A DNA stretch of 64,000 nt from Bacteroidota bacterium. GTDB taxonomy: Bacteria; Bacteroidota; Bacteroidia; Chitinophagales; Chitinophagaceae. The notes beneath the pieces are model-generated. The model searched no databases. It was not told where the DNA came from and saw nothing but the letters and a program-made list of their open reading frames with translations. Shown here in pieces: positions 53,387-62,498 of the stretch (the stretch's first letter is position 1; each line of letters starts with the position of its first letter). The translations under genes and the position numbers were made by a program. The stretch spans positions 1 through 64,000 of the forward strand of contig PSRI01000258.1 in the NCBI GenBank assembly GCA_003175935.1, given 5' to 3'.

Positions 53387-53857
53387 TTAAACACCAATTT
53401 CTTCAATCTTAAATTTAATAACGCCGGCGGGTGCCTGCACTTCTGCAACCTCACCAACCTGCTTACCTAACAAGCCTTTTCCGATAGGTGATGTGATTGA
53501 AATTTTTCCAGCTTTCAGGTCAGCTTCTTTTTCAGATACTAACTGATATGTAACCTGCTTTTTAGTATTGAGATTTGTGAGAGTAACTTTTGTAAGAATG
53601 CTCACTTTACTTATATCAATATTATTCGTTTCGAGGATTCTTGCATTCGCAATATCACCCTCGAGCTTAGCAATTCTTGCTTCTAAAATTCCCTGTGATT
53701 CTTTGGCCGCATCGTATTCCGCATTTTCTTTGAGATCGCCTTTTTCACGGGCTTCCGCAATAGCACGGGAAGCCGCCGGCCTGTCTACCGCACGCATTTT
53801 CTGAAGTTCAGCCTTCATCTGCTCTAGCGTTTCCTTAGAAACGTACATTACACTCAT
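53387..53857 (-). CDS. greA: Transcription elongation factor GreA
   Basis: GreA rescues backtracked RNA polymerase by stimulating RNA cleavage. The ATG at 53857 gives 157 residues: YVSKETLEQMKAELQKMRAV, the acidic coiled-coil tip GDLKENAEYDAAKE (with the Asp/Glu needed for activity), then the C-terminal domain with VTYQLVSEKEADLKAGKISI and SPIGKGLLGKQVGE. This is standard. An upstream ATG (53869) is possible. A promoter and a terminator-like hairpin lie in its leader, see 53881-53968. Confidence 0.95.
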   Translation of the reverse strand: MSVMYVSKETLEQMKAELQKMRAVDRPAASRAIAEAREKGDLKENAEYDAAKESQGILEARIAKLEGDIANARILETNNIDISKVSILTKVTLTNLNTKKQVTYQLVSEKEADLKAGKISITSPIGKGLLGKQVGEVAEVQAPAGVIKFKIEEIGV

Positions 53858-53880
53858 GGTTAACCCCATTTTGGTTATAA

Positions 53881-53922
53881 AAGAAAAAAATAACAACGCC
53901 TCAGTTCATGCCTGAAGCGTTG
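53881..53922 (-). terminator. Terminator-like hairpin in the greA leader
   Basis: CAACGC (53894-53899) pairs with GCGTTG (53917-53922), and TCAG with CTGA inside, with one mismatch and a 7-base loop. On the minus strand it is followed by TTATTTTTTTCTT (53893-53881). It lies between the greA promoter and its start codon, so it can stop transcription before greA. Confidence 0.75.
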
Positions 53923-53937
53923 CACTATGTATTGGGG

Positions 53938-53968
53938 CAAAATTAAAAGAAAATTGATTTCAAACAAA
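53938..53968 (-). promoter_or_regulatory. Promoter of greA, full -33/-7 match
   Basis: TTTG (53968-53965), 19 bases, TAATTTTG (53945-53938) on the minus strand. Transcription should start near 53931, about 10 bases before the hairpin. Confidence 0.75.
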
Positions 53969-54024: not shown

Positions 54025-54585
54025 TTAATGCCTGAATTTATATTGTGCAAAACCTTCCACAGATGTTATTTTTCCATTCCTCAGCCCCCAATTTTCCTGA
54101 TAAATTGTTGAGTCGGCTTTTCCATTTAAGGACACTGCCTTTTCTTTCATCCAGGTGGAAACCCAATCCTCATTGCGATCATTACTGTGTAATGGAATGA
54201 ACGCGAGGAATGATTCGTTTAACGATTTGAACCTGGCCCTGAAAGTTGCAATCCTTTTAACGGCTTCATCCGCACTAACATTACCCGAACGGGTATCATA
54301 AAGTCTAAACTTAACCGAATCAGCAAAAAATTTTTTTAATTCATCCGTCTTTCCTTCTTCTAAAGCTTTATAAAAATCCAGTACCACCCTGGTATTATTC
54401 GGATCTCCGATTTTCCATTCTGCCGAATATTCTGCTGCATAAGGATAATCAATTTTCGGCGTGGGCTTCACTTCCGCAACGGTAGTGTCGGCAGGCTTTT
54501 TTTCTTCCACTACAGGCGTAGATGCCTGATTGTTGCAAGACATCATAAAACCAACAGCGATAAATGATCCTAATAATTTTTTCAT
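54025..54585 (-). CDS. NTF2/SnoaL-like lipoprotein, copy 1
   Basis: A 186-residue exported protein. The lipobox ends at MMSC (residue 17), followed by a Pro/Thr/Lys linker. The mature domain (about 50-180) shows a helix-rich start (YPYAAEYSAEWKIGDPNNTRVVLDFYKALEEGKTDELKKFF) and a sheet (NEDWVSTWMKEKAV, YQENWGLRNGKITSVEGFAQYK), the pattern of SnoaL-like folds. The ATG at 54585 is chosen because sequence upstream of it would overlap the next gene. It is a tandem paralog of the gene at 54623-55174. Confidence 0.82.
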   Translation of the reverse strand: MKKLLGSFIAVGFMMSCNNQASTPVVEEKKPADTTVAEVKPTPKIDYPYAAEYSAEWKIGDPNNTRVVLDFYKALEEGKTDELKKFFADSVKFRLYDTRSGNVSADEAVKRIATFRARFKSLNESFLAFIPLHSNDRNEDWVSTWMKEKAVSLNGKADSTIYQENWGLRNGKITSVEGFAQYKFRH

Positions 54586-54622
54586 AGCATCAAAGTTTTT
54601 TCTTGATAATTTGAAATGGTTT

Positions 54623-55174
54623 TTATTTTTCAGCGGCTGGAAATTTCTGATCGTATTCTCCCCAATATGAAATCCTGCCGTTCTTAACCTGATACATTCC
54701 ATGAGATTGAGTCGAATCTTTTGAACCATCCTTATGCGTTTCATATAATTCGTACCAAACAAAAACCCAGTCTTCATTTTTATCAACTGCATGTACCGGC
54801 ATCCAGGCTGTAATTTTGTAATCCATTGCCTGAATTTCCTCTCTAATTTTGGCTCCTAATTCAGCGAGACTATCACCGGTTCCACTGAAGTGATTCCCGT
54901 CAGCAAAATCTGCGTTAACCGTGTCGGCATAATATTGACGAAGATCCTTTGTTCTACCGTCGCGCCAGGCCATAAAAAGATCAAGAACCAGTTTAGAATT
55001 TTTTGGATCACCAGTTGTGAAATTGGACGAATATTCTGCATTGAATGGATATACAATAGGAGCCGCCAAAGTAACTGTATCCTTCTTTTCCGCAGCTGCA
55101 TTTTGATTTGCCCCTGAACTGCAGGAAACGAATACAACCATTAAAAGGCATCCGGTAATCAGGTAATTTTTCAT
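54623..55174 (-). CDS. NTF2/SnoaL-like lipoprotein, copy 2
   Basis: A 183-residue exported protein, upstream of its paralog on the same strand. The lipobox ends at VSC. Clear matches to the other copy: VYPFNAEYSSNFTTGDPKNSKLVLDLF, RTKDLRQYYADTV, and NEDWVFVWYELYETH with a final YQVKNGRISYWGEYDQ. The domain is probably a SnoaL-like ligand-binding fold with unknown ligand. A perfect 12-bp palindrome (55210-55221) lies 36 bp before its start. Confidence 0.82.
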   Translation of the reverse strand: MKNYLITGCLLMVVFVSCSSGANQNAAAEKKDTVTLAAPIVYPFNAEYSSNFTTGDPKNSKLVLDLFMAWRDGRTKDLRQYYADTVNADFADGNHFSGTGDSLAELGAKIREEIQAMDYKITAWMPVHAVDKNEDWVFVWYELYETHKDGSKDSTQSHGMYQVKNGRISYWGEYDQKFPAAEK

Positions 55175-55359: not shown

Positions 55360-56283
55360 TTACAATTTCAATTTCTCGAGGATGATTTTGGCCATTTTAA
55401 AAAAGGCCTCATGACTGTACCCTGCAATATGCGGAGTAATGAGAACATTTGGCTGGTCACTCAACCACTTTAATTGATACTTTTCTTCAGGAGTATAAGT
55501 ATCCAGTTTTTCATTTTCAAGAACGTCTAATCCAGCCCCTGAGATTTTTTTATCCTCCAACGCCTTAATGATCGCAGAAGTATTCTGAATTTTTCCTCTT
55601 GAAGTATTAATGAAAATCGGCTTATTTTCAAGACGATTAAAGAATTCAGTATTTGCCAAATGAAAAGTTTCCTGGGTGAGTGGTATATGTAAACTGATCA
55701 CATCAGCATATTTTGAAATTTGGTCCATATTCGCCTCGTGAACATTTCCTTTTGCAAATCCAAATTTGTACTTATCATAAGCCAGGATTGAAACATCAAA
55801 GGCAGAAAGCAGCTTTGCAAACGAGCTACCGGTATTGCCAAATCCAATTATTCCAACCGTTTTACCTGTCAATTCTGTTCCCCGATTGGCATCCCTTATC
55901 CATTTTCCATCTGCAACTTCTTTGGAACTACTATTTAAATTATTCAACAAAGTAAGCAACATTCCCAGGGAATGCTCTGCAACTGCATTTCGATTTCCTT
56001 CAGGACTACTTTCGCACCTTATTCCTTTAGATTCAGCATACGCCACGTCTATTAACTCCATGCCACTACCCAAACGCCCAATCCATTTTAATTTGGGAGA
56101 TCGATCGATGATATTTTTATCAATTTTCAATCTCGTTGTTACTATCAAACCCTCGGTATCTTCCATATCTTTTTCAAGCTCTTCATAACTGATCCGGGGG
56201 CTATAGTGAACAGTAAATCCTCTTTGCTTCAACTGGTCAATCAAATATTCATGCGCTTTTGCTGTGATAATTACCTTCCTCAT
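55360..56283 (-). CDS. D-2-hydroxyacid dehydrogenase
   Basis: A 307-residue enzyme of the D-isomer 2-hydroxyacid dehydrogenase family, reducing 2-keto acids with NAD(P)H. It shows the cofactor motif [15 protein letters not shown], the basic residue in [10 protein letters not shown], the acidic residue in [11 protein letters not shown], and the His in [10 protein letters not shown]. Phosphoglycerate dehydrogenase-like is possible, but the C-terminal ACT domain is absent, so the substrate cannot be fixed. It lies 7 bp after rsmA on the same strand. Confidence 0.9.
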
Positions 56284-62439: not shown

Positions 62440-62461
62440 AGAAAAACCCGGCTTAATATTT

Positions 62462-62498
62462 TGCGCCAACCAGTATTTAGGTTGGCGCATTTTTTTTC
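62462..62498 (+). terminator. Intrinsic terminator after the Gfo/Idh gene
   Basis: TGCGCCAACC and GGTTGGCGCA form a perfect 10-bp stem with an 8-base loop (62472-62479), followed by a run of eight or more Ts. Confidence 0.93.

Follow-up and report, generated by a model that had tools for sequence, protein, structure and literature searches.

The window analysed here is the whole stretch of 64,000 nucleotides of contig PSRI01000258.1 (assembly GCA_003175935.1), and the feature under study lies on its minus strand, directly ahead of greA. This gene (53387..53857, -) encodes a protein of 156 amino acids with both GreA/GreB Pfam domains (PF03449, 6e-26; PF01272, 3e-25), and PF03449 had one match only in the organism's own genome in a profile search. 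Direct reading of the upstream sequence revealed a -33-like element TTTG (53968-53965, -), a 19-nt spacer and the -7 promoter element TAATTTTG (53945-53938, -), which has the form TAnnTTTG; the consensus of the B. fragilis sigma factor sigma-ABfr is TTTG / TAnnTTTG, as cited in PMC7366714. From the promoter consensus, transcription is predicted to start at 53930..53933 (-), about 5-8 nt past TAATTTTG. A 12-bp hairpin (53923-53893, -) begins 14 nt past TAATTTTG, some 7-10 nt from the predicted start, and is followed by TATTTTTTTC, still upstream of greA. It is composed of the 5' arm GCAACGCTTCAG (53912..53923, -), the loop GCATGAA (53905..53911, -), variable in sequence and length among relatives, and the 3' arm CTGAGGCGTTGT (53893..53904, -), and it runs into the T tract TATTTTTTTCTTTT (about 53879..53892, -), where the sequence and the terminator scan place the predicted RNA 3' ends. 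The two arms were recovered by terminator scan, folding, family model and covariation, and the stem includes one internal U-G wobble and a G-U closing pair. When folded from its likely start (about 53932), the RNA forms a single hairpin of -19.3 kcal/mol, and from the hairpin end to the greA ATG (53857, -) there are 35 nt in the window, usually about 30 in relatives. The initial annotation had described a full TTTG-N19 promoter, a hairpin and a T-rich run before the greA ATG, and all three are present; the hairpin that it took to be imperfect and of about 10 bp does exist but measures 12 bp, and its closeness to the promoter holds, with 14 nt after TAATTTTG instead of the roughly 10 bases proposed.

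Farther upstream, a lipoprotein-like gene (54025..54585, -) is co-directional with greA and represents a lineage-specific neighbour, outside the element. Two lipoprotein-like genes related to each other (SnoaL-like / DUF4783-like) lie in tandem at 54025-55174, between greA and the gene for a 2-hydroxyacid dehydrogenase homologue (55360-56283), and the insertions in this interval vary among relatives.

Terminator-like sites as such are found at chance level in the 8 kb around greA, where the terminator scan returned 7 against 6.7 expected. The stem in the greA leader is the longest of them, with 12 pairs against 8 for the runner-up, and the site is not a chance occurrence because all 108 family greA leaders possess one, compared with 56/324 shuffled leaders. 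In the centroid fold of the window sequence only, a CCCC/GGGG pairing surrounds the hairpin. A further hairpin that resembles a terminator and has a long T tract is located at 62455-62498 on the plus strand; among the matches of the greA-leader model in the window it ranks third (E 0.42).

The leaders of Chitinophagaceae were collected from 80 named genome loci, 30 loci from whole-genome relatives and a few more, chosen by similarity to the query, and 108 distinct leaders were left after removal of duplicates. Every one of them carries a terminator hairpin, whether the criterion is relaxed (5 T of 8, -8 kcal/mol) or strict (6 T of 8, no G). A covariance model of the leader was then built on 23 diverse family leaders. 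In the organism's own genome it gave a single match below E 1, at the greA leader (E 5e-8), followed by a match at E 1.6 and by the greA hairpin itself on its reverse strand. In a genome survey that drew family genomes evenly, the model matched 279 of 296 at E<=1 and about 260 at E<=0.01 (count from the table). Among 83 family-model matches, three of which are reverse-strand hits, 98.5% of the stem cells are paired, wrong (shifted) registers pair only 34-58%, and double-changed cells number 29 compared with 4.4 in shuffles. This covariation of the upper stem indicates a conserved RNA pairing in the greA leader, so that the hairpin conservation and the compensatory changes that the initial annotation had suggested looking for across Chitinophagaceae are both there. 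The six pairs at the stem base, CAACGC/GCGUUG, behave differently: they are the same in all 76 distinct family sequences, which pairing alone would not demand, and we therefore conclude that an additional sequence constraint acts on them. In the T tract, each of positions 4-10 after CGTTG is a T in at least 95 of 106 family leaders. In most family members, and also in E. coli GraL, an A stands at the second or third position of the tract, before seven T's.

An inverted repeat lying right after a promoter, with an invariant CAACGC/GCGTTG core, could also be read as a DNA operator for a repressor acting at the start site. However, the spacing between the arms is not fixed, ranging from 11 to 21 nt, the near-universal G-U pairs are non-palindromic as DNA, and the T tract is found on one side only; we give this possibility hardly any credence. 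It could likewise be proposed that the locus serves mainly to make a small RNA acting in trans, with greA merely as its host, since trans effects are known for E. coli GraL (PMC6829880) and the stem base is conserved in sequence beyond pairing. These conserved letters, however, are in the stem, whereas the loop and the 5' overhang differ among relatives in both sequence and length. No conserved seed is thus left single-stranded, and this speaks against a conserved role in trans. Since the element is moreover always tied to greA, we regard a main function in trans as very improbable.

To read the leader beyond the family, we could not rely on the family model, which as a class-wide detector matched only 55/395 class genomes, with most of the weak hits away from greA. 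This poor performance is due to the drift of the stem sequences (examples outside the family are GAAACGCTTC..GAAGCGTTTC, AAAGAGTCCCG..CGGGATTCTTT and AGAGGTGTTCGCC..GGATACCTCT), and greA leaders were therefore read directly. With the relaxed criterion a hairpin and T tract were found in 20 of 22 leaders of the order outside the family, in all 33 from elsewhere in the class and in 13 of 14 from the remaining classes of the phylum, where the class and phylum leaders are those most similar to the window GreA per draw and not a random sample. By the same criterion a terminator precedes 43 of 191 control genes (co-directional 32/105, divergent 11/86), taken as simple ORF calls from 19 stretches of relatives and from the window, and it appears in 70/489 shuffled leaders. 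The strict criterion retains 108/108 leaders in the family, 17/22 in the order, 22/33 in the class and 11/14 in the other classes, against 20/191 controls. The initial annotation had spoken of an analogous arrangement in a distant phylum, and this turned out to be an understatement, as nearly every Bacteroidota greA leader examined carries the feature.

The promoter accompanies the hairpin. A strict TAnnTTTG within 35 nt before it was found in 79 of the 108 family leaders (4% of shuffles) and in 21 of 39 order and class leaders (2.5% of shuffles). The median distance from the end of the promoter element to the hairpin is 10 nt, and, with the start placed by the consensus, only about 4 nt of RNA are predicted to precede the stem. 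A classical antiterminator was considered and rejected, since this predicted spacing leaves no room for one. A leader-peptide attenuator was also discarded, as an ATG at the stem base occurs in only 36/108 leaders and is not conserved. A stem near the 5' end with a short overhang protects mRNAs such as E. coli ompA, and the predicted overhang of about 4 nt has just this geometry. The hairpin could thus be a 5' stability element protecting the greA mRNA from decay, with termination incidental. This explanation, however, leaves the conserved T tract unexplained and gives no account of the T tracts that follow unrelated stems in other orders, and it appears to us quite unlikely.

It had also to be evaluated whether the hairpin is a plain terminator of the upstream gene, overlapped by chance by the greA promoter. 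The upstream gene is in fact co-directional in 87/102 family loci, the gap from its stop to the hairpin is often 20-60 nt (in many loci 20-30), and a terminator-like site likewise precedes 30% of the co-directional control genes. However, in the loci where the upstream gene is divergent the hairpin is retained in 15 cases out of 15, with the same stem sequence, compared with 11/86 divergent controls (Fisher 3e-11); these divergent neighbours, identified by eye, include a TonB receptor, a membrane protease, an ATPase and DUF2911-like proteins. Nor does the hairpin travel with a former neighbour: in 51 loci the 2-hydroxyacid dehydrogenase gene is the direct neighbour, in 20 it is displaced and in 30 it was not found, while the hairpin is always with greA. 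Conservation of the stem sequence follows greA, and a TAnnTTTG promoter immediately precedes the site. The hairpin differs also in kind from the ordinary 3' terminators of the same family, an A-T6+ tail being present in 84/108 greA leaders against 3/44 of these terminators and an internal G-U in 104/108 against 22/44. In many Chitinophagaceae 3' terminators an A-rich 5' arm pairs with the T run, so that they look bidirectional, and the greA hairpin is unlike them. That the hairpin is just the terminator of the upstream gene is unlikely on these grounds; the hairpin belongs to greA rather than to the upstream gene, although it may additionally serve a co-directional upstream gene as a second job. 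Because TAnnTTTG lies just upstream and the hairpin is only about 30 nt before the ATG, greA transcripts must cross the terminator.

The interpretation that we consider probable, from the arrangement of these sequences, is that of a promoter-proximal intrinsic terminator whose read-through sets the GreA level, with an RNA of about 45 nt as a by-product. The initial annotation had proposed a promoter-proximal terminator in the greA leader, and conservation, covariation and the likeness to E. coli GraL support it. The greA promoter would fire into an intrinsic terminator starting about 10 nt after the predicted start; most or part of transcription would halt at the T tract, freeing the hairpin RNA, and the polymerases running through would yield greA mRNA, so that the frequency of read-through would set the amount of GreA. 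Termination with partial read-through is likely, although a 12-bp stem with seven T's resembles a strong terminator and would have to let through enough transcription for greA. Since only a few nucleotides of RNA are predicted to precede the hairpin, tuning is expected to act on the early elongation complex and not through alternative RNA pairing. Candidates for this control would be an elongation factor (GreA or a different one), pausing, or a start site moved into the 5' arm, by which the hairpin would be lost. As in E. coli, the most economical tuner would be a partner factor or GreA itself, and we hold feedback by GreA on this terminator, suggested by analogy, to be possible but somewhat short of an even chance. 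More tentatively, and with still lower confidence, it could be hypothesized that throughout Bacteroidota GreA controls its own synthesis via the promoter-proximal terminator and that in Chitinophagaceae CAACGC/GCGUUG is read by a specific factor, resulting in attenuation that is free of an antiterminator. RNA polymerase, a Nus factor or GreA-bound polymerase would be candidate readers of the invariant pairs.

Premature terminators upstream of greA have been predicted clade-wide in bacilli, Clostridia and Proteobacteria (Naville and Gautheret 2010, PMC2965389), and Bacteroidetes are not named in the text of that paper. The greA leaders reported there were drawn with antiterminator structures, whereas the Bacteroidota element is predicted to have almost no RNA ahead of the hairpin. 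In Flavobacterium psychrophilum, a member of the same phylum, 64 undescribed structured 5' regions were listed (PMC9723704), and the main text of that work does not name greA among the structured leaders. Rfam gave no family match at the greA-leader site, even at E 5, and a search of the open literature found no description of a Bacteroidota greA terminator. The sequences thus point to a greA-leader attenuator that is phylum-wide and, as far as we could find, undescribed in Bacteroidota, while greA-leader attenuators as such are known.

The known system closest in design is GraL, so far studied as a curiosity of E. coli. The E. coli greA leader was submitted to the same scan as a positive control and returned GCTGACCTGGG-ACTTGTA-CCCGGGTCGGT with tail ATTTTTTTG, a stem of 11 bp with one U-G and -18.6 kcal/mol. 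On side-by-side reading no homology to the GraL stem or leader was found, the stem sequences being unrelated. Termination at GraL in E. coli goes up in vivo when GreA is catalytically active; this autoregulation was observed only in vivo, requires an unknown factor and was not reproduced in vitro (PMC6829880), so that the anatomy of a leader does not by itself imply feedback. The Bacteroidota leader can be classed as a GraL-type attenuator in that an intrinsic terminator stands early in the interval from the greA promoter to the start codon and belongs to greA. The leader in the window and GraL also share a stem of 11-12 bp, a 7-nt loop, one internal U-G and then (T)ATTTTTTT, with an A before seven T's, and a short 5' part, which in GraL is of 19 nt (PMC6829880). 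They differ in the promoter, which in the window is that of a phylum-specific sigma factor, and in the position of the hairpin, nearer both to the predicted start (about 10 nt) and to the ATG (35 against about 100 nt). By analogy, the Bacteroidota element may work like GraL, as a likeness of design for which we do not claim common descent. The Bacteroidota leaders represent natural variants, and Flavobacterium, Bacteroides and Chitinophaga are tractable hosts in which the effect of GreA on a terminator within the first 50 nt could be studied. Finding this design in so remote a phylum, under a different sigma factor and different promoters, suggests that early termination is a general means of holding the level of GreA, whether termination ahead of greA is ancestral or has evolved repeatedly.
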